Shown here piece after piece: positions 16,716 to 48,813 of a stretch of DNA of 64,000 bases. Below the pieces are notes generated by a model. The model saw only the letters and a list, made by a program, of their open reading frames with translations, searched no databases and was not told the DNA's origin. The stretch covers positions 496,001 to 560,000 of the forward strand of contig JAMYHL010000003.1 in the NCBI GenBank assembly GCA_025531455.1, read 5' to 3'. The stretch is from Apiotrichum sp. Y4204 (Eukaryota > Basidiomycota > Tremellomycetes > Trichosporonales > Trichosporonaceae). Position 1 is the stretch's first letter. Every line of letters starts with the position of its first letter. Both the position numbers and the translations under genes were made by a program.

Positions 16716-17772
16716 ATGTCCAGCTCGGCTCCAGAATGGGAGAACATCTCCCTCCCATCACCCGACATCCTCAGGCACCGTGAGCGAGCCGCCTCATCCC
16801 CAGTTCTAACGCCAGTGACCGACGCGCACTGCCATCCGACGGACAGCACCCGCGGCGTCGAGGCTATCCGTCTCGGCGGGCTAGCGGCCATGGCGACGCA
16901 GGATGACCAGGACGCAGTTGCAGCTCTTGCGGAGGACAGACCGTGGCCCTCCAGCTCAGGCGTGGGGATTATTCCAGCATTCGGTGCGTCAGATGACCGT
17001 GTCCGTTGATCTGACACCAGGCTATCACCCATGGTTCGCCCACCGCTTCACGCTCTCTGATACAACAAAGGAGGAGCACTACCGCTCCATTCTCTCTCCC
17101 CGAACAGACCAAGAGGATGAATTCGCGCACTTCCTTCCCCTCCTCCCGGACCCAGAACCCTTCGCCCCGCGCCTGGAACGCATACGGGAGAATATCGCGG
17201 CCGTCCAGAAACGAGGACAGAAGGCAATCGTGGGCGAGATCGGGGTCGATAGCGGCGCAAAGGTCCCATGGCGCTCTGGAGATTCTGGCGGTCTAACGCC
17301 GTTCAAAACATGCATGGCGCACCAGAGCGCGATTGCGCGCGCGCAGATCGACCTCGCCGTGGAGCTGGCCGTGAGCGTGAGCATGCACGCGCACGGCGCG
17401 GTCCTCCCTCTCCTGTCGGACGCGATGAGCGGGCACGGGAAGCGCTTTTCGCGGACGCATATCTGTATTCACAGCTGCACGCTCGCGCCGAACGAGGTGG
17501 CATTCCTCGCGAAGAAGGGCAATTTCTTCTTCTCGCCGTCGGTGGCGATTACGGCGGGCCGGAAACGTGGTGATGACGCGGTGCGGTCCATTCCCGACGA
17601 CAGGGTTCTGGTCGAGAGTGATGCGGGCGATGTGAAGCAGATGGAGCGGAGAGTATGGGCCGCGGTCCTGTGGGTTGCAAAAGTGAAGGGGTGGGAGGTC
17701 GAGGACGTGTGGGGTGATCAGGAAGGGGCGGTCCACATCTTTGAACGGAACTGGGAAAAGTTCTTGTTGTAG
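16716..17772 (+). CDS. TatD-family metal-dependent hydrolase (Scn1-like)
   Basis: Predicted metal-dependent hydrolase or DNase of the TatD/amidohydrolase TIM-barrel group. Exons 16716-16983 and 17021-17772 (37-nt intron) give 339 residues. Metal-binding TDAHCHP sits at 35-41. GYHPWFAHR follows directly after the splice. IVGEIGVDSG carries the conserved Glu of strand 4. Later come HAHGAVLP, ICIHSC, FFFSPSVA and, near the end, VLVESDAGD, the TatD Asp strand. The barrel elements are in the usual order. The nearest recognised group is fungal Scn1/Cut9-interacting proteins, by memory of motif spacing, so substrate and pathway are open. The start at 16716 follows a pyrimidine-rich leader; upstream in-frame ATGs lie within it. 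Confidence 0.9.
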
Positions 17773-23493: not shown

Positions 23494-25439
23494 CTAGTGG
23501 ACGTTGCGTAGACGGCGGCGGCGCGAACGGTGGCACGACTTGCTGTGCCCGCCGGTCTCGTCCTTGCTGTTGCCTGTTGGCGGCGGGGGAGTGGCAGCTC
23601 CGCTCTGCTGAGGAGCAGCGGAAGCGGAGGCGCTGGCGCTCGGCTGAGTGGTAGACGAAGAGGGCACCGCGACGAGGATGGGGCCTCCGGGGCCTCCGGG
23701 GCCGGCACCGGCAGCGGCGTCCCCCTTGGAAACTTCCGAGACTGGGGCCGCCTCCTCGCTGCATGGGAAGCCGAACCAGGGAACGTTGGTGTTGCAGTGG
23801 CGGTTCTTCTTGACATTGGGCACCGCGGCCTTGATGGACGCGTCGAGCTTCTCCTGGGAGATGCGGCCACTTGTCGGGACGCGCTCCTCCCACGCCGTCT
23901 GGCGCCAGTTCTCCATGCCGTAGCCCTTGGGCTTGTCGTTCACGCCCTCTGTGGAGTGTGAGCTGGATTTCACGCCTAACCGATTCTCGTACTCACTGAT
24001 CTCGACGGCGTTCCTGTCGACCTCCTCCTGGGTGCCGATCATGACGGTGGTAATGTTGTTCTTGATCTTGCGGTCCTTTGCCCACTCGGCGATGAGGGTC
24101 TCGGTCGAGGGTATGAGGTTGGAGACGTTGCTCGTGTCAACGCCGGGGATGACCATGGGCGGGCAGAATCCCGTACCGTAGACGTGGTCGAAGAACTGGA
24201 GATTGGGCGACGTCCATCCGGGCTTCTTGTACCAAGGGCAGTCCTTTGGCTTGGTCGTCGGCCCGTCCCAGTCCCACACGGGGTTGCAGCCTGGCAGGTG
24301 CTCGAGCGGGCGGTAGAACCCGACCTCCTCGGACGGAATCTGGCTCTGCAGGCGGCAGTTTTGCAGCTTGAGATCGGGCTGGAACTGCAGGTGGTCCTTG
24401 AAGTGGGAGCATGACTCGAGGTTGTCACCCACACCCCAGCAGTGGTCGATGGCGCCCTGGAGCACGTCGACGTCCCATCCAGCGACAAAGTCACCTGTTG
24501 ATAAGCACAACTCCACTGATTCATCCAGCTGATCCACTCACCGTGCCAGGTAATGCCCGTGGTGTCACCATTAGACATGACGACGTTTGTGCGGTCTGCG
24601 CGCCACTGGGCCCTCATCTCATCGGTGAGGTACGAGAAGGTCTCGATAAAGATCTGCGGGTAGTTGATGGGATGCGACTCGGGACAGGTGCGCGCATTGG
24701 TCTGCCACAAGCCGTGGCCGTTGACAGGCCAGGACATGTGCGAAAAGTGGTCGTCAGAGTCGAGCGACTGGTTGGCCCACCCGCAGTTCGGGAACCGGAT
24801 GTTCATCTGGATGTATTCTTTTCCGGGGGGGTCGGGGTGATGCGTGCCGTTGGGGAGATACTGCCCATTTGTCGATTTGCCAAGGTACGCATCCATGGTG
24901 AGTTCGACGCCCTGTGTCTGCTTGGCGCCGGCGTCGCGGCGGCCACCGAGGCCCGAGACAATCCGCATGCCAGGAGGGAACGCCGTGATCGGCCCGGTGC
25001 TGTTGCGCAGCTGATAGTAGATACGCACGTACGACTTCATGGGCGAAAACGTGCCGTTCTGGTTGATAAAGTACATGACGGGCGTCCAGTAGTTGGACTT
25101 GTCGGGGATGACCTTTACGGACGTGCACTCGGACTTCATCTGGTCCTCTGGCGAGTTGAGGATGTCTGCGTGTAAGGAAAAGTGTGTTTGTGGCATGTGG
25201 CGGTCATGTCGCTTCAACTAGGCGTACTCACCACGGAAGCCAGAGGCCCCAAAGACCTGGTGGACGTGCCCGCCCACCGTGCCAGAGTTCATGATCGGGT
25301 CCATGCGCGACCAGGTGATGGCACCCGAGTCGCCGAGGACGAACACCGAGTCGATACCGTTCGACACATCCTGGTTCATGTCGGCCATCACGCCCACGGC
25401 GCCCAGCACCGTCAGGGCGAGGAGCTTGAGCTTGAACAT
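23494..25439 (-). CDS. secreted DUF1996 domain protein
   Basis: Extracellular protein of unknown function carrying the fungal DUF1996 domain. Exons (minus) 25439-25232, 25165-24542, 24494-23997 and 23948-23494 sum to 594 residues. The first 19 residues (MFKLKLLALTVLGAVGVMA) form a clear signal peptide. Domain landmarks: SRMDPIMNSGTVGGHVHQVFG, TSVKVIPDKSNYWTPVMYF, MRIVSGLGG, FPNCGWANQSLDSDDHFSHMS and CPESHPINYPQIFIE. Several Asn-x-Ser/Thr sites are present. After the domain comes a Ser/Ala/Gly/Pro-rich tail (GAGPGGPGGP, SASASASAAPQQS) ending in a basic patch SCHRSRRRRLRNVH. There is no obvious GPI signal, so it is probably free or wall-associated. A TATA box lies 73 bp upstream of the ATG. Confidence 0.93.
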
Positions 25440-34403: not shown

Positions 34404-36375
34404 ATGATGTTCGCTTCTCGGGATGCCAGCGGGGAGCCGTCGGGTCTTCGGGCAGGTAAGCTGTTCGGCTGTAGTTTAGTCCTGTGCCAAAGGGGTGTTT
34501 GACCCTAACCTGTTCAGGACTGACAAACTACGGCGACGACGAGTTTGCGCTCTTCCTGCGCAAGGCGTTCATCAAAGGGGCGGGATATTCTGACGACGCG
34601 CTGGATCGGCGCATTGTCGGTGTTGTTGACACTCAGGTATGTCTCACTCTGACATGTGCTTGGCAGGATACGAGTTGACATCCGAAGAGCGGCTACAACC
34701 CATGCCACGCGAATGTCCCACAGCTGCTCGACGCAGTCAAGCGCGGCGTGATGCTGCAGGGCTGTCTGCCAGTCCTGTTCCCGACGATCTCGCTGCACGA
34801 GTCGTTCGCGCACCCGACCTCGATTTTCTTCGAAATCTCATGAGCATGGATACAGAGGAGATGATCCGCGCGGCGCCGATGGACGCCGTGGTCCTTATCG
34901 GGGGATGTGACAAGACGGTTCCGGCCCAGCTCATGGGCGCCATCAGCGCTGATGTTCCCGCTATCCAGCTTGTCGTCGGGCCAATGGTCACCGGCTCCCA
35001 CCGCGGGACACGCGTAGGCGCGTGCACTGACTGCAGGGGATACTGGGCAAAGTACCGCGCCGGGGAGATTGATCTCGAGGAGATTGGGAATGTCGGAAAT
35101 GAGCTGGTACCGAGCTCTGGTGTGAGTCCACATAGGACTGTCTCTTCGTGCTCATGGCCAGACTTGCGGGGTGATGGGGACAGCGTCCACAATGGCATGC
35201 ATCACCGAAGCGCTTGGCATCTCACCGCTGGGCAGTGCCTGTCCCCCGGCAAACGGGTCGCAGCGGCTGCGCGTCGCGGAGATGACGGGACGGCTGGCAG
35301 CGAAGGGCATCCCGCGCCCAAGCGAGGTGCTGAGCCGCAAGTCGTTCGAGAACGCCATCACTGTCCTCCAGGCGATTGGGGGAAGCACCAACGCGATCGT
35401 GCACCTCCTTGCTATTGCCGGACGCGTCGAGGGCCTGGATCTTACGCTGGACGACTTTGATGCTATTGGGAGGCGTACCCCGCTCCTCGTGGATCTCAAA
35501 CCGAGCGGCGCAAACTACATGGAGGATTTTTACAGGGTGAGGATGAACGGGAGCATCATGGCTGATACCAGGCTGGGGGTGTTCCAACGCTGCTTCACGA
35601 GCTCCGGCCCCTCCTCCACCTGAACGCTAAGACAGTAACGGGCCGGACCCTAGGCGAGGAGTTGGATGCCCAGCCACCGACATTCCTGCAATCCATCGTC
35701 CGGCCTTTCACAGACCCCATTGTAGCCATCGCCTCCCTCATTGTCCTCCGCGGCAACCTCGCGCCAGACGGCGCCGTGCTCAAGCAATCGGCCATGTCCG
35801 CGACGCTCAAGCGCCACAAGGGGCGCGCCGTGGTGTTCAAAGATGCGGACGACATGCTCGCCCGTATCGACGATCCCGATCTCCCCGTGGACGCAAGTAG
35901 CGTGTAAGTGCTTGTTGCAAACTACACTGACTACACTGACATTATCAGCCTAGTCCTGCAGAACATTGGGCCCGTCGGACACCCCGGCATGCCGGAAGCA
36001 GGCTACCTCCCGATCCCGAAGAAGCTCGCGCGCGCCGGCGTGAAGGACATGCTGCGAATCTCGGACGGGCGGATGAGCGGCACGGCGAGCGGCGCGGTCG
36101 TGCTGCACGTTGCGCCCGAGGCGGCTGTTGGCGGTCCCTTGGCTGTCGTGCGGGACGGGGACGAGATTGAGCTGGATGTCGAGAGCCGGCGGCTGGAACT
36201 GTGTGTGCCGCGAACTGAGTTGGAGGAGAGGTTGGCGCAGTGGAGGGAGGTCCATCAGGATGGGAAGGGGAGGAAACGGCCAAAGAGAGGATATCGGCGC
36301 CTGTACCATGACCACGTCACGCAGGCCGACACAGGCTCAGACTTTGACTTCCTCCGGAGCGATGGTGGTGACTAG
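34404..36375 (+). CDS. IlvD/Edd-family dehydratase with one apparent frameshift
   Basis: Family enzymes dehydrate dihydroxy-acids or sugar acids with an Fe-S cluster and Mg2+ (Ilv3, 6-phosphogluconate or aldonate dehydratases). Exons 34404-34455, 34518-34636, 34688-35121, 35162-35536, 35572-35903 and 35949-36375. Motifs: LTNYGDDEFALF, SGYNPCHANVPQ (cluster Cys), LIGGCDKTVPAQLMGA (Cys), ACTDCRGYW, TCGVMGTASTMAC (Cys), AIGGSTNAIVHLLAIAG, GNLAPDGAVLK, GPVGHPGMPE and RISDGRMSGTASGAV. In exon 3 the frame breaks near 34826-34831. Reading on from HESFAHPTSIFF meets TGA at 34841-34843, whereas the family continuation RNLMSMDTEEM lies one frame over, as if one base were missing. Everything after is intact. 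Either a young pseudogene or an assembly error. It resembles sugar-acid dehydratases more than mitochondrial Ilv3; substrate unknown. Confidence 0.83.
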
Positions 36376-36508
36376 CAGAACGGAACGACAGCACAACACA
36401 ACATGTGAATTGCATAGGAAGTACAGCTCGTGCTGCGCAACAAAGCCCGAGCGCTGTTGGCTGCCGAAGTGTTCGCCCTTCTCACCCTGCCCACATGATG
36501 AGGTTAGA

Positions 36509-38168
36509 TCAAGAGGGTATATTCCGAGGGTGCTGGTCTTCAATAAGCAGACCCATATCCTCTTCCTGGCGGTATCGGCGGCGAGGGAGAGATTGTTCCG
36601 GGGTTGGAGCTGATGGGGGTTGCGTAGATGGTGCGGCTGTCGTCGACGACGTAGCTGGAGCAGCGGTGCTCGACATGAGATCTGTCGATGAAGCTCTCCC
36701 TATGTTTGACGGAGAGGCTTTTGAGCCATCGTGGGTGACCACCGGTGCAATATGGTCGTTCTTGAACGGCACCACCGGGGGTTCATTTTGTAAGCTCAAA
36801 GACGAGGAGGACATCATGCCTTCCTGGAGGACTCGCCTGAGAAGTATCAACTGCACGTTCGTCCATCCTGTAAAGCACTTACGTATCAACTCCTTTGTGT
36901 TCAGCTGTCGCTCGTCTTCTGCAAAACAGCCATAAGCCGCAGGCGATAATCAAGAGAGCGACGACACTGCCAACCTAATGTCAACCTTAACCGGTCATCA
37001 GTTGGTAAACCTTACAACAGCTCCAGCGATTGCGCCCGGTGAGACCTTTCTTCTCCCTTGAGCTGCTCTCGCCATTTCTGAGGTCGACGCTGGTCCATCA
37101 GCTGTCGTTGATTCAGACAATGCCGGCGTGCTTGTGAGGACGTCACCTGACGCCGATGAAGAAGGGATCGAGTTGGGATCACTACAGTAAGAGAACTTGT
37201 CGGACAGGTCCAGGTGGGAACCACTTACAAATAATACAATGTCGCAGGGTTGAACTCAATCGGAACGGCAGTCGTATTGGATTCTACTCTGAGGGCATAC
37301 TGGATCTCCGGATCGAGTGACAGAAAGAGGAGGGTCACATTCGAGAACGCTGAAACCGTCGGAAACAGCGGGAAATATCGCTCTGTTGAGGACATGCTCA
37401 GTATCGCGGTGACCGGAGCCGTCAAAGTAGTCGAATTGATGGCATTCCCGCTCAGCATCACAGCTGACACGCCAAGACGAATAGGATACTCTCTTGACAT
37501 GGAACTCCTGGTCGTATCTATAAGTAATCGGTTAGCGGCCGGTGATACTTGAAACAAACGCCGTCGTCCGCTCACCAGGCTGTCCTGCGGAAGTTTGCCG
37601 ACGGTCGATCGCCATCCCGCGTTCTGGATTGCTGGTCATCGTCATTGTCGACATTTCCTCAAAGCTTTGCCTTGTAAAGCAATCAGCAACATAAGGAGTT
37701 TGGGGAGACTCACGCCCTTGTTTTCACTGTAAATGTCAGGGTGATCGACTTCAACTCCACTTCCTCTTCAGGATCAAGTGAGGTGACTTGAAGAATGGTG
37801 CTCCAGTCGTACCCCCCCATGTCTCTCAGAATGGATGCAGTTGACAACTGCTCGCGAGTGGGGTAATAATAGTCTCGGAAGTTATAGGAGTTCCATTTTG
37901 CCTGGGATGATCCAGATGCAGACACTTGCAGGCCAGAGCCGACCCACGGAAAGATGATGAATGCCCCCGTCTTGTTGGTGACCATGGTGCCTGTGTCCTT
38001 CTCAAATCCCGTTGCTGGAAGCCGTGGAATCCACCCTTCGCTGTAATTAAACATTGGATGAAGCGCCGGGAATGTCATCTTGTATTCGATGTTGTGGTAT
38101 GTTGAAGATTGAGCGAGGACTGTCACGGCCATAGCCACCGTCACCATCAGAGCTCGAAGAAACAGCAT
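36509..38168 (-). CDS. single-pass membrane protein, receptor-like, paralogue A
   Basis: Six exons (minus): 38168-37714, 37670-37576, 37517-37229, 37181-37016, 36974-36883 and 36836-36509, exactly 474 residues. Signal peptide MLFLRALMVTVAMAVTVLA is followed by an extracellular domain with several N-glycosylation sites and a beta-rich look (GAFIIFPWVGSGLQV, NVTLLFLSLDP). Then come a Ser/Thr stalk (SSSASGDVLTSTP), a transmembrane helix (GAIAGAVVGSVVALLIIACG, about 329-352), a CRRR stop-transfer and a roughly 120-residue Ser/Thr/Pro cytoplasmic tail ending with RYRQEEDMGLLIE. It forms a divergent pair with the next gene, sharing gene structure and sequence. No named domain recognised. The layout resembles orphan receptor-like membrane proteins of basidiomycetes and wall-stress sensors; function not known. 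Confidence 0.8.
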
Positions 38169-38817
38169 GGTCGATTGAGTGGGATCGAGTGGAGTACGAC
38201 GGTGATGGCCCGTTCGATGGATGAGGATGTAGCTTCATGATTGACAACAGACCACTCAATCGCTCCATCGCCCACTTCGGAGGCTCACATGTTCGTTCAT
38301 CAGTGTACTTCTGAGCCCCACCCGCACTAATGCACCGCGGTGCCCGTAAGAATTCACACGGATGATGTGCCTTGCCCTCGGCACAAGGCCAAAGTTTTGA
38401 GGGAACTAGAGATCTCGGGCACAGAGGCATTGTCATCGAGACAGACACACTGTACCTGCATCGATCTCGGGAGAGGGCTACTTGTGGGCTGCTAGCCGTT
38501 GATACGGTTCATGGTTTAGTGAGGCGAACCATCTACATCAGAACGCTGAAACCACTTCTCAGGCACAACAACGTTACGCTCTGAGCTTGAGGTCTCTCTT
38601 GCGGGGCTTTTTGGACCGTGTGCCCCAAAGAAAGCTGCATTCACAGCGCTGTACTGTCCATGCGGTACGGCTAATCCTGGTGTACTTGTACCTCTTGCAC
38701 TGCAGCGATAACTTGTTGCGTGCACAGCAATGACATCTCCACTGGAGTACTGGAGGACAAATAAGTCAGCCTTTGCTTTGTGGTTCATGTGAGATTTTAC
38801 TGATAACAAGGCGCGCG
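38169..38817. promoter_or_regulatory. shared divergent promoter of the membrane-protein pair
   Basis: 649 bp between the start codons of the two paralogous membrane-protein genes. No TATA match was found at a convincing distance. It is the only place where co-regulation of the pair could be encoded. Confidence 0.5.
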
Positions 38818-40770
38818 ATGACCGGCCGTTCGACCTGGAAATTTCTACTTGTCTCAGCTTTTCTCCAGACTGCCAACGCACAGTCTCACAATGCCACCAT
38901 TCCGATTAACCTCTACTTCAACTGGACTGTCGACCTCACCGAAACGGGCCTGCGGCCTATTGGCGCGATCAGTCATGCAAGTGTACAAGTTCACTACCCA
39001 CAATACCCGCCATCACCTTTCGATACATACGACGATCTTCAATTTTACCAGGATAAGGATACGACGCTGGCGGTGAACTGGCACGGCTCCGCCGTTTTTG
39101 TCAGGGGGGCATATCCTCCCGAATCGGAATACACCATATCTCAGTACAAAGGATCGGAACCCCGCCATTCAGTAACTGCGATTCCATCAACGTCCTCAAA
39201 CAACGTCAATGCAGAGTTCATCTATTTCGCCAACAACACATATTATGGCGATAACCTCCCCAACAATGGCGCAGACCTTAGGGTCACAAGAGGCGGAAAT
39301 CAGCTCGCTCAAATCGATTCGTTTACCACCACTTTAGGCATGATATCTGACGCGTATGTACATGTTTGTGGTAACTCCCGACAAGACTCATCAATATAAC
39401 ATCGCAGTCCACGGTTTGAGGACGTTCCGCGTTCCACTCTCCTATTTACGAAAGACGGTGATGTTAACACCGATGCGACCGGGGTACTCCAGTTCAACTT
39501 ATTCCAACACTTGGACGGACAAGTGGCCGCCAATGTATCTCACACAACATGCGCGACTTGTGAGTATGCTTGCCATGCACAATACCCAATATAATATCAC
39601 CGAACCCTCACCAAACAACATTGTCTCGAGCCACATACATTGTCATTACTTTGTCAAAACCCAAGGTCCACCTGCTGACTGGCGAGTGGGACAGCAACCA
39701 GTTGCTTATCCTTCGTTGTGCTTGTCCTCGGGCGACGAGCTAACTATCAATGCTCCTGCCAACACGTCGTTTCTGGATATTCGTGGGCAGGTTCCGGCTC
39801 GCGATTTTCATCCAGAGCCAATCCTGTACTTCCGTCTCAAGCAGCAGCGCGGTGTCGTTTATTCAAGTACGACAAGCTTATCCAGGGACATCAAGATGTT
39901 CCCTGCTCAGTACTGTCTGGCTAATGTGTCACTGCTTCGGTTGACACTGGACCCCACGCTCAGGCACGTCATTACTCTATCTGCAGGCAATGGATCGTTG
40001 CCACTCCACAGTGCAGCATTTTACTCTGCTATTTGGTTAGTTATCCAACGAGAGACCAGGCTGACTGCTGGCAGGGACGGGAAGATTCGCAATGGTATGG
40101 AGGACGAAGCCAAGCCACCAGAGTCACCGGCGTCCTCGACACGTCCGGGAGTTATTGCAGGTGCCACTGTGAGTCCGACATGCTCCCACCCATACTCGAT
40201 GTTTCGTCTCGTTCGATTCCTAACAGCAAGGTGGGCGGTTTGCTTGGACTGATACTCCTTCTAATTGTGGTAGTCTTTATGAGACGACGGTCTCGTAGAC
40301 GCGCAAGCAAATCCAATGGCGCCGACAAGGAGCGACCTTTCGAGATCGATGGAGCCTGTCATTCAGAGTCATCCGACATCACAACAGGCCGAAGCTCTGG
40401 GGAACAACCAATGAGGTGAGCATCTTGGGATTCACATCCTGACAAGTACAGCAACACTGTTGTGAGACCAGCTTTGCAAACGGCTGCACCCACCACAAAG
40501 GATGGAGCTACGGCCAGAGGACGTCGGCCCATGGTTCCGATGAAATCGCAACAATCGATGGGAGGGCAGTTGACGCCCTTGCCTTCTCAGAGCACAACGT
40601 CGGCCGCTTTGGCAGCAAGCACCTCAGCAAACGAACCATGGGACGTACCAGAGGACGAGGCGGAGAGTGAGGACGACATCGATCTGGTTCCACCGTCCTA
40701 CAATCCCGAATGGGGCGCGGCGGCGCGAGAGCGTGGAGTTTATCATGATGATCGCAGGGTAGAACCCTAG
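38818..40770 (+). CDS. single-pass membrane protein, receptor-like, paralogue B
   Basis: Six exons: 38818-39353, 39408-39559, 39666-40035, 40075-40168, 40231-40415 and 40452-40770, exactly 551 residues. Signal peptide MTGRSTWKFLLVSAFLQTANA, then an ectodomain rich in N-glycosylation sites (NATIPIN, YFNWTVD, FANNTYYG), containing WHGSAVFVRG and ANVSLLRLTLDP. A short stalk (SPASSTRP) precedes the transmembrane helix: GVIAGAT, then VGGLLGLILLLIVVVF (about 378-400). A strong basic stop (MRRRSRRRASK) follows, then a 150-residue tail with an acidic cluster (EDEAESEDDID) and VPPSYNPEW, a PPxY motif that could bind WW-domain ubiquitin ligases such as Rsp5 (inference). The acceptor at 39665 was chosen because only it keeps the frame. 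Paralogous to its divergent neighbour. Confidence 0.82.
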
Positions 40771-41677: not shown

Positions 41678-42754
41678 ATGCGTGTCGCTAGCTTGGCCAC
41701 TCTTGCGGTGGCGCCTCTATTTGTTGCTGCCAACCCCATTCCCGATGCGGACGCGCCAGTAACAGTCATTCCGAACGCGCAGCATGCAGATATCCCAGAC
41801 CCGAAAGCAGCAACACCGCCATGTGACTCTGCAGCACCGAAGCTCGACCCGCGCGCCGCAGCGTTCGGCCTCCCTCGACTCGTCATCTACGCGCAGTCTC
41901 TATACCGCGACAACACGCTCGTGTCGCTCCTTCCTCTTCTCGAGTCACAGAAGGTCGCTTTGACCCACCTCATTCTCGCCGCGCTTCATATCAATGGCGA
42001 TGGGAAGGGGGCAATCCACCTCAATGACCACAACATCGACGACCCAATGTTCAACGACCTCTGGCAGCAGGTTGACCAGTTTCGCAAGGCTGGCATTCCT
42101 ATTATCGGCATGGTCGGCGGTGCGGGGCCAGGATCGTTTGCGAAGGACACGCTCGACGCGCCGGACGAGGAGACCTTCCGCAGATACTACACGCCGCTCG
42201 CCGATGCGGTCCGCAAGCACAAGCTGCAGGGCCTTGACCTTGACGTCGAGCAGAAAATGAGCCAGGGGGGCATTGAGCGTCTTATCACAACCCTGCGGAA
42301 GGACTTTGGGCCCAGGTTTATCATAACACTCACCCCCGTTGCGACCGAGCTCTCAGGCGGCGGCACCCTTTCGGGCATTGACTACATGGCGCTCGAGAAG
42401 AAGCTGGGCCATGAGATTGCGTGGTACAATGCGCAGTTTTATAATGGGTGGGGATCCATGGTCGACACGAGCCAGTTTGACGCCATGATCAAACACGGCT
42501 TCAAGTCCGGCCGCATCGTCGCTGGGTCGCTCACCAACCCGCGGAATGGCAACGGCTACATCCCGCCCGAGGACATCCACAAGACTTTCTCCCAGCTCCA
42601 AAACAAATACGGCACCCTTGGCGGTATCTTCGGATGGGAGTACTTCAACTCGATGCCCGGCAACTCTTCTCGGCCATGGGAGTGGGCGGAAAACATCACT
42701 TCCTTCCTCCGCCCCAACTTCAAGCCAGAGCCAAACCCGTGCCCGATCATGTAA
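41678..42754 (+). CDS. secreted GH18 glycoside hydrolase
   Basis: Chitinase/endo-N-acetylglucosaminidase superfamily enzyme, 358 residues in one exon, rare in this window. Signal peptide MRVASLATLAVAPLFVAA is followed by a short Asp/Pro-rich pro-region and the barrel from RLVIYAQSLYRDN. GH18 elements: THLILAALHIN (strand 2), IPIIGMVGGAGPGSF (the SxGG-type strand 3), and LQGLDLDVEQ, matching DGxDxDxE except that the first Asp is Gln. The catalytic Glu and the Asp two residues before it are kept. Later come YNAQFYNGWG and GGIFGWEYFNSMPG with the C-terminal Trp. Likely acts on cell-wall chitin or on N-glycans as the endoglycosidase branch does; the substrate cannot be chosen from sequence. Confidence 0.9.
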   Translation: MRVASLATLAVAPLFVAANPIPDADAPVTVIPNAQHADIPDPKAATPPCDSAAPKLDPRAAAFGLPRLVIYAQSLYRDNTLVSLLPLLESQKVALTHLILAALHINGDGKGAIHLNDHNIDDPMFNDLWQQVDQFRKAGIPIIGMVGGAGPGSFAKDTLDAPDEETFRRYYTPLADAVRKHKLQGLDLDVEQKMSQGGIERLITTLRKDFGPRFIITLTPVATELSGGGTLSGIDYMALEKKLGHEIAWYNAQFYNGWGSMVDTSQFDAMIKHGFKSGRIVAGSLTNPRNGNGYIPPEDIHKTFSQLQNKYGTLGGIFGWEYFNSMPGNSSRPWEWAENITSFLRPNFKPEPNPCPIM

Positions 42755-44431: not shown

Positions 44432-46822
44432 CATGCAACCCGGCCTGCCACCGAGGAGGGTGGACAACATGTGTTCACCGCACATTAGACAGACTCCCAA
44501 CCGATGTCCCAACACACCCTTGACCAAGACTACACGATCCACAACTTTTGTCCCAGCAACCTCTTGTCAGTTCATGTAGCCGTTGATCCGACGTATCGCG
44601 CAGCAAGATTGGCTCATGTCCCCTCGCTTCCATGGCCTGGCCTTGCCCGCCCCCCCTCGTTTTGAAGCTGTCCTACGGACCCGCGATTCCTTCCGCCCCC
44701 CGGAACGACCAATCACCACGACCATTCACCATCCATGGAAGTTCTTTTTTAGACGCAAGTCTTTGAGTTAATAGACGAAAGGCTCCAAGACATTAGACGC
44801 AGCTCACCAACCTTGACGGGGGTGTCGTTTGGTGCTCGTGTCCAACATGCATTACGCGCGTGTAATCAGTGTGTTCATCGCGTGGGTGGAGCATGATTCC
44901 AAGTTTGCTCGGTAAGAGAGCGCACAAGCGACAAGCAATACGTAGCGGAATGACAGCGCGAGCGCCGAAAGCGGCTCCTGGAATCATTCTTCGGTTGCGG
45001 CGCTTTTCCCGACCACTCGTCTGGACCTCCACGGCAATCGTCCAGCTCAAATGCGGGCAGTTGCAAGCGGAGGTATGTCCGAGACGCAATCTGTAGATCT
45101 GGAGAGTGTTCACGGACGACTTTGCAGGTCGTTGTCCGGGGCCAGCTGGGGCCCTCGCTTGGGGCGGCGATGCGATGCGATGCCATTGCGATCCAACTGT
45201 CCGAGCGATCGGCGCGGGGCTCAGACAGATGCGGAGATTGCGCAGACGGCTGATGGTGGAGACATGGAGACAATTGACAAAGACGGACCGCGGCAACTGC
45301 GTCCCCACACCCCACATCTGCAGCCCCGCTCGCGCCGACGAACAAAGAACGATGAATAGCCTAGTCCAATCGGTTCATGTCGTTCGTCTCTGGGGCCTCG
45401 GTAAGCGGACGCCGCGGCCTTAGAAGCTTTGACCGGACTCTTTGCGACCCGAGTCCTTGGTAAAGGCGCGTAATACAGTGATCCCACGATCATCAGGTGG
45501 CATACAGGCTCTAGAGTCTTCATTTACCAACGCGTTGGTCGCCGTACAGTATCTGCAGTATCCGCAGTATCTCTCATTTGAGACCTGCCCCACCCCTAGT
45601 CTCCGTATTTCGTAATCTGTCTCCCCCGTGATACAGAGCGAGAGCGCACGCATCGCCGCATCAAAGGTCTCAGAAAGCGTCACGAGGGACATGAACCGGA
45701 TCATGTAGCACCCACTCAGTGATCCAGTGAACTGCATTCCATGACTGCGTCACGAAAGCATCCAAGTGTTCCAAGAGGCCAAGAGGTCATGAGCTGTCCG
45801 TAAATGAGCCAAGCAATGTGCAATTGCCCCATCAGCCTCGGAGACAACTACCGGTCATGTCTGTTTGGAAAAACAGGCAGAATGGTGTCTTTCGTGATTC
45901 AGCTAGTGGTGTATCGCGGTATGTGGTGACCATCAGTGGTGGTTGCTCGAGGGAGCGACGACGTATCTATCGGCCATGCCGCCGCTTCGAACACATCAGA
46001 CGGTGTTGGAGAGCGATTAGAAGCCACTGGAGCCATGGGATCTCTATTTGTCCAATTCATCCAGTTCCGGCTGTGGCTAAGAATGGAGAGATCATGGCCC
46101 GGAGAACCTAGAAGGTCGGGGGCGATCTGATGCCTCCTCTCTCCTCTCGTTGCTCATTGTCCGTCCCGGGCGGCCAGGGGAGGGGAAAATATAGACTCTC
46201 TGACCTGACCTGGGGCATGATCGCATGACAGGCATCTGACCAGCATGGCGTGACGCTTGACAGTTTGACAGGCACTGGTCGCTGGCCGCTTGCAGCTTGC
46301 AGCTTGCAGCTTGAGCTGTGGGCCACATGGGTTGACCCTGTTTAACTGTTTCCGTATTCCCATCTCGCCGCGTGTCGGCGAGGACGCCGGATCGTTATCT
46401 CTCTCGTACGCCGCGAACGCCGGGCCGTGAGCCGCACTACAGGTCTGATTGCGACCCTGCCCCTTCCATCCCTTCCGTTCTTCCCGATTGCAGGTAGTGT
46501 GCCGAGACCAAACTAGCAGAGCTAACTGTGTTCGCCGCGGAGGAGCATGCAGCAGTCGATGGGGAGGTAAACTAACGAAAGTTCCAGCGGGGCTCGCATG
46601 GAGCCCTCGACATTATTCTTAAGAACCCCGCGTCGAGGACGATCAACATCCCCCACACCCCCACTCGCAACCCGACTTCTCCACACTCGGACACGCAGCG
46701 CCTGCTCGCGATCGGTTCCTCGACAAAACAGAGCTTCGACACGCTCACGCGACCACACATCCCTGCTTTCGACACACACACCTACCCAACCCAAAGCATC
46801 CACCACCGCTGCATCTGCCAGC
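44432..46822. other. 2.4 kb intergenic region
   Basis: No gene found on either strand; the open frames present are short and featureless. It contains two small direct repeats: GCAGTATC-type units near 45547-45575 and four GCTTG units at 46288-46316. Probably the promoter of the UNC93-like transporter plus unknown content. Confidence 0.5.
46288..46316. repeat. short tandem repeat, 7-bp unit GCTTGCA
   Basis: Three perfect copies of GCTTGCA and a partial fourth (GCTTGAG), in intergenic DNA upstream of the UNC93-like gene. Confidence 0.85.
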
Positions 46823-48813
46823 ATGACGTTCTCCGAGAACATTGGTACGCGCCTCGCGTCCATCAAAGTCGGCTCTGTGCGATGTGAGTAGCATGTCGTG
46901 GACCTCGAGCGCGATCCACCTGGTGAAAAAATCTCTCGGCCTCGCACTTCGCGTCAGCCAATGATAAACCAGGGTAGTGGAACCCACAAACATCGCCTGA
47001 CCAAACCCACCAAGCATCTAGTAGATCCATGGAAAACCAGCTAACATGTAGACAACTCGCCATGGACTCAGGTAGCTATCCTGGGCTTCGTGTGTTTCCT
47101 CTCGCCCGGTCTCTTCAACGCTCTCTCCGGCCTCGGTGCCGGTGGTCAGCAGGATGTCTCCCTTGTTGACACATCCAACGGTCTGCTCTACGGTGTCTTT
47201 TCTCTCACAGGTTTCATCGCTGGTTCTGTCAACGTGAGTACAAATGTGGACAGTCCCTGGGTGGCAAGCCACTTCCTGAGCACGGCCCGGTGTTCTCTGA
47301 ATCTCGCACGGACAATCGATGCGTGTTGGGTTGGTGGGATCCGTGCCTATTGTGGGAACGCCGGCACATGTCCGCAGAGTGCGCACGCCATGTCTCCGTA
47401 GCGTGCCGTCCCCGACCTGCCCATGCACAACAGCAAATGTTCGTTGCAGGACTCGGCCAGAACGCCGCATTACGTGGTATGCGCGCTATGCGCCAAGGTT
47501 ATCGGCTGTTTCCGCCGATAACCGATAACCTCCACTCACGAACGCACTCTGGGGACACACAGTGCTGACATTCGCAGAACGTCCTTGGTCCCCGCCTCAC
47601 GCTCTGCATTGGTACGATGGGTTACTCGATCTACGCTGGTTCGCTCTGGGCATTTGACGTGCACCACAACCGTGGCTTTGTGATTGCTGCTGGTGGCATT
47701 CTCGGTCTGTGTGCTGGTCTGCTATGGACAGCACAGGGTGCCATTATGATGTCTTACCCCGAGGAGAAGGACAAGGGACGTGCTTTCTCCGTCTTCTGGG
47801 CCATCTTCACCTTTGGTGGTGTTGTCGGCTCGCTCATCGCCTTTGGTCTCTCCTACGACTCGCCCCTTCCCAAGACAGCTACCTCGGTGTACATTGTCTT
47901 TGTCATCCTCATGATCTGCGCTGTCGCGGTCTCGTGGTTGGTCCTGCCGCCAAACTATGTCGTTCGTGGTGACGGTACCCTCGTTGAGCTTCAGGCCTCC
48001 ATGTCGTTCAACGATGAGATCAAGGCCTTTGCCAAGCAGTTCAAGGACTGGCGCATGCTCCTCCTCTTCCCCATGTTCTTCACCTCCAACTACTTCTACT
48101 CGTACCAGGGCTCAATCGTCTCGTACATGTTCTCTGGCCGTACTCGTGCTCTCTCCTCGTTCCTCAGCAACCTCGGTGCTGTCATCGGAGCCGTCATCAT
48201 CGGTGTCATTCTCGACCGCACCCCTGGCTCGCGTCGCCGTCGTGCCATCACCGGCTGGACCTTCACCCTCATCGCCATGTGTGGCGTCTGGGGTGGTGGT
48301 ATCTACTTCCAGCACGGCTGGAAGCGCGCGCTGAGCCCCACCGACCCCACCTGGGCTTACGACTTCACGGACAAGCGTAGCCGCGGTCCCCTCGCCCTCA
48401 TGTTCTTCTACTACTGCGTCGACTCATTCTACCAGGGCCTCGCGTACTACACCATGTCGTCCATCACCAACGACCCCTTCAAGCTTGCCCGCATGGCCGG
48501 TTACTACAAGGGTGTCCAGTCCGCCGGTGCCGCCATCTCGTTCGGCATGGACGCCGTCCACACGCCGTACATGACCGAGGTCATCGTCTCGTTCGTCATC
48601 ATGCTTGTCTCGCTTCCCCTGTGTCTCGTCGTCCTCCTCAAGGTCACCGACACCAACAACACCGAGGACAACGTCGTCAAGGTCGACAACCTCACCGAGG
48701 GCGACCTTCACCACATTGCCCTCCCCAAGGGTCACCACGCTCTCGACGACCGCGTCGAGGAGGAGAAGGGCACCGCCCACATGTCGGAGGTCCGCAAGTC
48801 CGACTCTCTCTAA
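46823..48813 (+). CDS. UNC93-like major facilitator protein
   Basis: Membrane protein of the MFS superfamily, UNC93-like (DUF895) branch. Exons 46823-46883, 47052-47233 and 47578-48813 sum to 492 residues. About eleven hydrophobic helices can be followed, starting with VAILGFVCFLSPGLFNALSGLGAGG, a typical opening of this branch (PGxxNAxxGLGxGG). Further: GPRLTLCIGTMGYSIYAGSLW, AGLLWTAQGAIMMSYP, GRAFSVFWAIFTFGGVVGSL and a basic loop DRTPGSRRRRA. The soluble C-terminal tail is charged (LPKGHHALDDRVEEEKG). Codon choice is strongly biased to C-ending codons (GTC, CTC, ACC), suggesting high expression. The 344-nt second intron is long here and carries an inverted repeat with GATAA motifs. Substrate unknown; fungal members are often called ion or nutrient transporters without proof. 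Confidence 0.93.

Follow-up and report, generated by a model that had tools for sequence, protein, structure and literature searches.

The window analysed here, a stretch of 64,000 nucleotides from Apiotrichum sp. Y4204, carries a head-to-head pair of genes for single-pass membrane proteins, A and B (Table 1), which may form a polymorphic surface-recognition locus held as one functional unit under long-term balancing selection. The probability of this reading is put at about one half. It is suggested by a second copy of the pair in the same assembly: the two haplotypes differ far more than the collinear flanks do, synonymous sites included.

Both genes were rebuilt with six exons and GT..AG introns in phases 2-1-2-0-2, as the first-pass annotation had described them. 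In each gene intron 1 lies within an Ala codon, intron 4 falls between GAIAGAV and VGS in A and between GVIAGAT and VGG in B, and the motifs NVTLLFLSLDP and NVSLLRLTLDP are both present. For intron 5 of B the most likely acceptor is at 40451 rather than 40466, since the second copy, on contig C6, has no AG at the later position; this gives a protein of 551 aa, and the phase is the same either way. An earlier B model of 546 aa was used in the Pfam and PDB (ectodomain part) searches, one genome search and one protein-database search. The architecture is consistent with the description of the proteins as receptor-like. Each shows a single strong membrane-spanning segment (the best window of 21 residues is 331-351 in A and 379-399 in B) as well as a Ser/Thr stalk and basic stop-transfer sequence, and the predicted N-glycosylation sites (five N-X-S/T sequons in A, seven in B) all lie ahead of the membrane segment. 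A signal peptide had been claimed for both; that of A is a clear hydrophobic N-terminus, while that of B is only likely, its N-terminus lying outside its three most hydrophobic windows. PPxY occurs in B and not in A, within the tail sequence PPSYNPEW, which we take to be of the WW-domain-binding type; EDMGLL in the A tail is presumably an acidic dileucine-like motif. The predicted eight-strand beta sandwich for the second ectodomain module of B is of low confidence (pLDDT 57, pTM 0.53), and the first module gave no usable fold (pLDDT 38).

Table 1. Features of the A/B locus (positions in the window)
Feature	Positions	Strand	Remarks
Gene A, single-pass membrane protein, 474 aa	36509..38168	-	start 38168, end 36509
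Gene A exons	38168-37714, 37670-37576, 37517-37229, 37181-37016, 36974-36883, 36836-36509	-	rebuilt model
Ectodomain of A, exons 1-3	37229..38168	-	haplotype comparison
Tail exon of A	36509..36836	-	EDMGLL also in C6 copy
Shared intergenic (divergent promoter) region, haplotype-specific	38169..38817	.	649 bp
Gene B, single-pass membrane protein, 551 aa	38818..40770	+	rebuilt model
Gene B exons	38818-39353, 39408-39559, 39666-40035, 40075-40168, 40231-40415, 40452-40770	+	
Ectodomain of B, exons 1-3	38818..40035	+	haplotype comparison
Second ectodomain module of B	39668..40033	+	predicted 8-strand beta sandwich, low confidence
Tail exon of B	40452..40770	+	PPSYNPEW also in C6 copy; similar sequence downstream at both paralogue loci
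Hyperdivergent island	36509..40415	.	500-bp-bin identity to C6

Judged from their sequences, A and B are very probably paralogues, as had been proposed; profile comparison, intron phases and further paralogues all point this way. Their global identity is low (103/436 aligned residues, 23.6%). A profile-profile comparison of the two ectodomains gave an E value of 8.9e-5 with a probability of only 59.6% over 118 aligned columns, and in this alignment the split Ala codons of intron 1 fall in register. On C6, the homologues repeat all five intron phases of A and B; their gene models were made knowing A and B, and their GT/AG sites are separate sequence.

The second pair is collinear with the first and intact, in the same 48.9-Mb assembly, the window pair being on contig C106. 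The A homologue (C6:15356-17050) is 51.6% identical (242/469 aligned residues) and the B homologue (C6:14489-12573) 63.6% (336/528), and both pairs have open frames and the same tail motifs. The expectation that the two genes are conserved as a unit is thus borne out in the second genome copy. The flanks match C6 at 90.6% over 23.8 kb (part of the A tail included) and at 90.2% over 12.2 kb, about 36 kb in all. With two genome copies present, the strain could be hybrid, diploid or dikaryotic; assembly size, G+C and two-copy content suggest a Trichosporonales hybrid. In one survey hybrids of that group average 40.5 Mb and genomes of the group reach 42.4 Mb (PMC7026411), and the assembly here is larger. 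At least two pairs are present in the genome, those on C106 and C6. That they are old tandem duplicates, a different one retained in each genome copy, rather than alleles, would give old divergence without selection, but is very improbable: both pairs have the same neighbours, 100-bp bins around both stop codons match C6 at 82-90%, and no third pair or relic is found among the matches listed (candidate lists of 40 and 41).

Divergence between the copies is concentrated in a narrow island. Eight of 80 500-bp bins (36500-40499, all in the island) are at 55.5-77.0% identity to C6, the other 72 at 82.5-98.6%. Identity drops to 55-67% in both ectodomains and the promoter region between them, and rises again through the tails. 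The A ectodomain (residues 21-279) has 43.0% amino acid identity and differs at 38/63 4-fold sites (0.60), and the B ectodomain (residues 22-352) has 56.1% and 54/89 (0.61), while the tail exons have 68.8% in A and 85.4% in B (4-fold 7/52). Together the ectodomains differ at 92/152 4-fold sites (0.61) versus 142/971 (0.15) in six neighbouring ORFs (Fisher p 1.3e-31), and after Jukes-Cantor correction the 4-fold distance between haplotypes is about 7.6 times that of the flanks. These six were chosen from 13 neighbouring ORFs for having clearly more synonymous than nonsynonymous differences; the seven dropped all had lower 4-fold values (0.02-0.08), and their omission therefore works against the island's excess. 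At least two of the seven are probably real genes (DUF1996, ilvD). The decay at the edges is clear, if uneven, on the B side: 4-fold sites differ at 9/11 within codons 1-60 but only at 3/26 and 5/27 within codons 421-540. In A it is weaker, codons 361-474 still giving 5/17 and 10/25. The 649-bp promoter region and its 866-bp C6 counterpart have no 11-mer and only two 10-mers in common, so the co-regulation of A and B that had been suggested is unproved. The mating-response motif ACAAAG is found once in the promoter region of each haplotype, but not on the same side in the two, with about 0.2 expected per strand, and was not used.

The extreme synonymous divergence makes the haplotypes look old; on these figures their age seems to exceed by far that of the genome copies. 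The equal 4-fold values of A and B would fit a co-inherited pair; near saturation, they do not prove equal age, and one of the two genes may be under selection with the other merely linked. In neither gene does dN reach dS (0.55 against 1.56 for A; 0.35 against a saturated value for B), so both haplotypes are still constrained. The much lower divergence of tails and flanks is probably due to recombination or homogenisation. A single introgression or gene replacement from a distant species into one parent, involving ordinary surface sensors with no role in recognition, could produce near-saturated synonymous divergence within 90% flanks in one step. We consider it unlikely: replacement would have to be confined to ectodomains and promoter, with identity climbing back across some 0.5-1 kb of tail sequence, where a recent event should leave a sharp-edged block. 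In addition, G+C drops from 58-59% in the flanks to 51% in the island for each haplotype, and since it is equally low in the two, neither looks foreign to the site.

Ser/Thr stalks, PPxY tails and N-glycosylation sites are common in wall sensors and endocytic adaptors, which, with the high dN of the ectodomains, counts in favour of ordinary fast-evolving proteins of these kinds under weak constraint or at a local mutation hot spot. This account is nevertheless improbable, as the synonymous and intergenic excess over the flanks is beyond the reach of weak constraint, and nothing similar was seen in one measured paralogue or in 13 two-copy control loci, a biased set. The controls (including three WSC loci, two CFEM loci and STE3, whose copies are 96.4% identical) range from 85.9 to 96.4% between copies; the bias arises because a pair was measurable only when both copies matched closely enough, and 7 of 24 loci had no partner. 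Kre9/KNH loci were left out of the set, and off-register repeat matches at 74-80% were set aside for the CFEM pair. Beyond the pair itself, divergence was compared over 36 kb of flanking DNA and at 13 further loci. The first-pass annotation had also offered wall sensing and cargo adaptation as roles, but an island made up of hyperdivergent ectodomains and promoter makes allele-specific recognition appear the likelier function. A and B have no WSC or Mid2 domain in Pfam (E up to 1), and were not classed as wall sensors of that type.

We infer balancing selection, recognition and contact-dependent signalling from the comparison of two haplotypes of this one fungus. An identical genomic signature would be expected if the surface pair were the target of an extracellular antagonist (a killer toxin, a competing microbe or a host defence), negative frequency dependence then preserving old alleles; divergence centred on the exposed parts and promoter, with constant tail motifs, agrees with this as well. 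We regard it as rather unlikely, as a single toxin receptor does not call for two adjacent paralogues and their promoter all to be highly diverged, and we know of no antagonist of A or B. Under the recognition reading, an inverted duplication would have produced the two paralogous single-pass receptors, and each genome copy would carry a different, very old haplotype made up of the two ectodomains and the bidirectional promoter between them. The ectodomains of A and B on a given cell might bind each other, or the A or B of a partner, at hyphal or cell contact. Whether or not the co-inherited alleles match would be signalled inward through the constant tails, probably as altered endocytosis and ubiquitin-dependent turnover, and fusion or adhesion would be allowed or blocked. 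Frequency-dependent selection would let haplotypes persist far longer than species. The assembled strain may have lost the recognition function. A more specific version is put forward only tentatively: that the head-to-head receptor paralogues are a basidiomycete self/non-self locus, independent of STE3, with ancient trans-species ectodomain-promoter haplotypes, common tails and a layout convergent with that of a pair in Tetrahymena.

In the Tetrahymena pair, MTA/MTB, the type-specific region of the head-to-head genes is described as taking in the putative promoter (PMC3608545, PMC10901506). In both systems head-to-head membrane-protein genes combine variable ectodomains and a putative bidirectional promoter with more constant terminal membrane/tail exons. 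The likeness is one of layout, and the mating role of MTA/MTB has no known counterpart for A/B. Unlike MTA/MTB as described, A and B have one transmembrane helix instead of five and no furin-like repeats by Pfam, and only two pairs (a lower bound) were found in place of a germline array of incomplete pairs. Membership of that system is excluded by protein type, as a terminal exon with several transmembrane helices is lacking. In Neurospora, linked genes with transspecies haplotypes are reported for doc (PMC4831770) and haplogroups for cwr-1/cwr-2 (PMC9550227). In genetic arrangement A and B resemble doc-1/doc-2 and cwr-1/cwr-2, being linked, apparently co-inherited genes with highly divergent haplotypes. 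However, CWR-1 is described as a polysaccharide monooxygenase and CWR-2 as having eight transmembrane regions, whereas A and B are single-pass paralogues; they have no AA11 monooxygenase match in Pfam at E up to 1, and protein type excludes them from cwr. Allele differences at the het genes of Aspergillus fumigatus are reported to reach only several hundred bp past the coding region (PMC11138114), and the A/B haplotypes are similar in apparent great age and in a footprint of a few hundred bp past the genes. The het genes are described as acting in post-fusion incompatibility, while A and B are predicted surface proteins. A further parallel is STE3 of the Trichosporonales MAT locus, a membrane receptor with deep trans-species alleles described on the STE3 side (PMC6730849), but A and B belong to a different protein class. 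STE3 matches occur only on C13 and C51 (contigs that may join into longer chromosomes), and the pair was not assigned to the basidiomycete P/R mating-type locus.

The mechanisms of somatic incompatibility in basidiomycetes “remain completely unknown” according to a 2021 paper (PMC8229728). Comparison of the two genome copies inside a single assembly points to the A/B pair as a specific candidate recognition locus of a basidiomycete, one that can be tested, and the same comparison is applicable to other fungal hybrids, where it may reveal more loci. If the interpretation is true, head-to-head genes sharing a type-specific cassette of ectodomains and promoter arose separately in fungi and ciliates.

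No report of the locus was found among the open PMC papers listed, subscription papers being outside this scope. Among 5.8 billion proteins, 7994 candidates were scored for whole B and none matched at E up to 0.01, and its tail (440-551) had no match at E up to 10 (912 candidates); the lack of a close orthologue may reflect missing gene models. The best PDB sequence match to the B ectodomain (E 0.063) is not a convincing relative, and Pfam searches of A and B (E up to 1) gave only weak, below-cut-off matches at or beside the transmembrane segment. The pair had been taken to constitute an undescribed family. Its paralogy stands, but the family is not limited to the pair: by tblastn the second ectodomain module is common to at least two more genes of the genome, L031/L034 and L015. 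Introns 1 and 2 of L031 and L015 match A/B in position and phase, as does intron 5 of L031; neither gene showed intron 4, and L031 showed no intron 3. A likeness of these genes in the first ectodomain module was noted by eye only. The paralogue L031 has seven matches at E up to 1 among the same 5.8 billion proteins. Five were examined, and two environmental proteins (P0003 and P0004) were judged informative, having membrane segments and PPSYNPEW or PPAYNPEW tails. Tail ends of the form PPxY[N/D]PxW are thus present in two environmental proteins and downstream in both paralogue loci. Over 479 codons the L031 and L034 proteins share 97.3% identity, and the two genes differ at 20/307 4-fold sites (0.065).

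Genes A and B, which lie head to head and are predicted to encode single-pass membrane proteins with an ectodomain, a Ser/Thr stalk and a tail, were rebuilt from the DNA. The identical intron phases described in the first-pass annotation were recovered in both models, and its further claims of an Ala codon split by intron 1 in each gene, an intron inside each membrane segment, an LDP stretch common to the ectodomains and a PPxY motif in one of the pair were all borne out. The signal peptide it gave to B is likely, but the N-terminus of B lacks strong hydrophobicity. The last acceptor of B was set at 40451 by comparison with the copy on contig C6, which leaves the phase unaffected. A and B are identical at 103 of 436 aligned residues. 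Comparison of their ectodomain profiles, each built from two haplotypes, gave an E-value of 8.9e-5 and a probability of 59.6% over 118 columns, with the intron-1 Ala codons in register; structure predictions for parts of these ectodomains are weak.

Coordinates of the A/B pairs, their neighbours and the genes used for comparison (window positions unless a contig is named)
Feature	Position	Strand	Remarks
Gene A	38168-36509	minus	474 aa; five GT..AG introns, phases 2-1-2-0-2
Gene B	38818-40770	plus	551 aa; five GT..AG introns, phases 2-1-2-0-2
A copy	C6:15356-17050		484 aa; open frame, phases 2-1-2-0-2
B copy	C6:14489-12573		559 aa; open frame, phases 2-1-2-0-2
TatD-like DNase	16885-17769
DUF1996 protein	24042-25217
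ilvD-type dehydratase	34630-36375		N-terminal domain matched in 35126-35542 (Pfam)
GH18-like protein	41678-42751		Pfam score just under cut-off
MFS/UNC-93-like transporter	47569-48810
STE3 genes (L048/L049)	C13:119249-120186, C51:28274-29208		copies 96.4% identical over 3.5 kb
Very long CFEM protein	C10:99178-105564, C102:485285-491683		2264 and 2306 codons; one open frame each

Protein searches of the 48.9 Mb assembly, in which the window is C106:496001-560000, found one further A/B pair, likewise head to head, on C6. Window positions 13544-53475 are collinear with C6:1-40000, the stretch compared, and the GH18-like gene accompanies the C6 pair too, at 94% identity. Outside the pair the two contigs are about 90% identical: 72 of 80 bins of 500 bp show 82.5-98.6% identity to C6, and the remaining eight (36500-40499) show 55.5-77.0%. 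The least-identical bin outside this island, at 44500-44999, has 82.5%. In 100-bp steps, identity drops from 99% to 64% across about 500 bp of the A tail, and recovers unevenly across about 1 kb of the B tail. Between the haplotypes, amino-acid identity is 43.0% (A) and 56.1% (B) in the ectodomains and 68.8% and 85.4% in the last exons, while the two promoter regions (649 vs 866 bp) have no 11-mer in common. The GC content is 51% in the island and 58-59% outside it in both haplotypes. A level about 7 points below the flanks extends over 36900-40300 and C6:12900-16600, and all four A/B genes have a lower GC3 than the six neighbouring ORFs measured.

At fourfold-degenerate sites the haplotypes differ at 38 of 63 (A) and 54 of 89 (B) positions in the ectodomains, and at 14 of 41 and 7 of 52 in the tail exons. 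Neighbouring reading frames differ at 142 of 971 pooled sites, a figure from six of 13 ORFs, the others having lower values; against it, the ectodomain total of 92/152 gives p = 1.3e-31 (Fisher's exact test). The related gene L031/L034 differs at 20 of 307, its protein being 97.3% identical over 479 codons. In the ectodomains the nonsynonymous distances are 0.55 and 0.35; the synonymous distances are larger, close to saturation or past it. Given this excess and constraint, the haplotype sequences appear to be much older than the split of the two genome copies and constrained since; being near saturation, synonymous sites reveal neither an exact age nor the relative ages of A and B. Introgression of the pair is a possible source of such divergence, as is a polymorphism driven by an antagonist.

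Main blocks of thirteen other two-copy loci are 85.9-96.4% identical between copies, in a control set biased towards alike copies (7 of 24 resemblance loci had no partner in the compared set). Seven controls were chosen by resemblance to A or B, mostly in the membrane segment; the others are three WSC loci, two CFEM loci and STE3. The very long CFEM frame holds many CFEM modules in both genome copies, with at least 21 matches on C10. An ancient trans-species polymorphism of STE3, following mating type, is described in Trichosporonales (PMC6730849). If this genome belongs to that order, the close identity of the STE3 copies makes them the same type, and opposite mating types do not account for the island. 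These sequences suggest that both parents of the two-copy genome shared one mating type, in which case they may have united otherwise than by a standard cross. We infer that the fungus is one of the Trichosporonales hybrids, for which parental amino-acid divergences of 7% (T. coremiiforme) and 17% (T. ovoides) are given (PMC6642101); the genomes in one survey are listed at up to 42.4 Mb (PMC7026411), vs 48.9 Mb here.

Allele-specific recognition at cell contact is the most likely role of the pair, read from two haplotypes of one genome; it fits old, co-inherited, haplotype-specific ectodomains with less diverged tails. Both haplotypes retain a dileucine-like motif in A and a PPSY motif in B. 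Motifs of these types act in endocytic sorting and in the recruitment of WW-domain ubiquitin ligases. Recognition could be signalled by keeping or removing the receptors, which would then allow or halt fusion. The layout matches that outlined for Tetrahymena MTA/MTB (head to head, variable ectodomains and promoter, less variable membrane and tail exons; PMC3608545, PMC10901506), and the evolutionary pattern is like those outlined for the fungal allorecognition loci doc (PMC4831770) and cwr (PMC9550227) and for the het genes of A. fumigatus, with their narrow footprints (PMC11138114). Membership of A and B in MTA/MTB or cwr is ruled out by protein type. Likened by layout and pattern, not by sequence, the pair would work like these systems rather than be one of them.

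The family is wider than the A/B pair, as a common module, introns and tail ends recur elsewhere. Among 24 chosen loci, the second ectodomain module is also found in L031/L034 and in a further related gene, L015 (tblastn E 3e-4 to 9e-3), and in a whole-genome search A matched L031 at E 5e-7, membrane segment included. Exon reconstruction placed intron 1 (phase 2, split Ala) and intron 2 (phase 1) at matching places in L031 and L015, and intron 5 (phase 2) in L031; L031 showed neither intron 3 nor intron 4, and L015 showed no intron 4, so these introns either set A and B apart as sister genes or have disappeared from the other two. PPxY[N/D]PxW ends occur in B and, downstream, at the L031 and L015 loci. 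Two environmental proteins found by protein search with L031, P0003 and P0004, carry such ends as well; given these two, the family probably reaches other organisms. Both have a similar membrane segment, with tails PPSYNPEW and PPAYNPEW, and P0004 also resembles the second ectodomain module.
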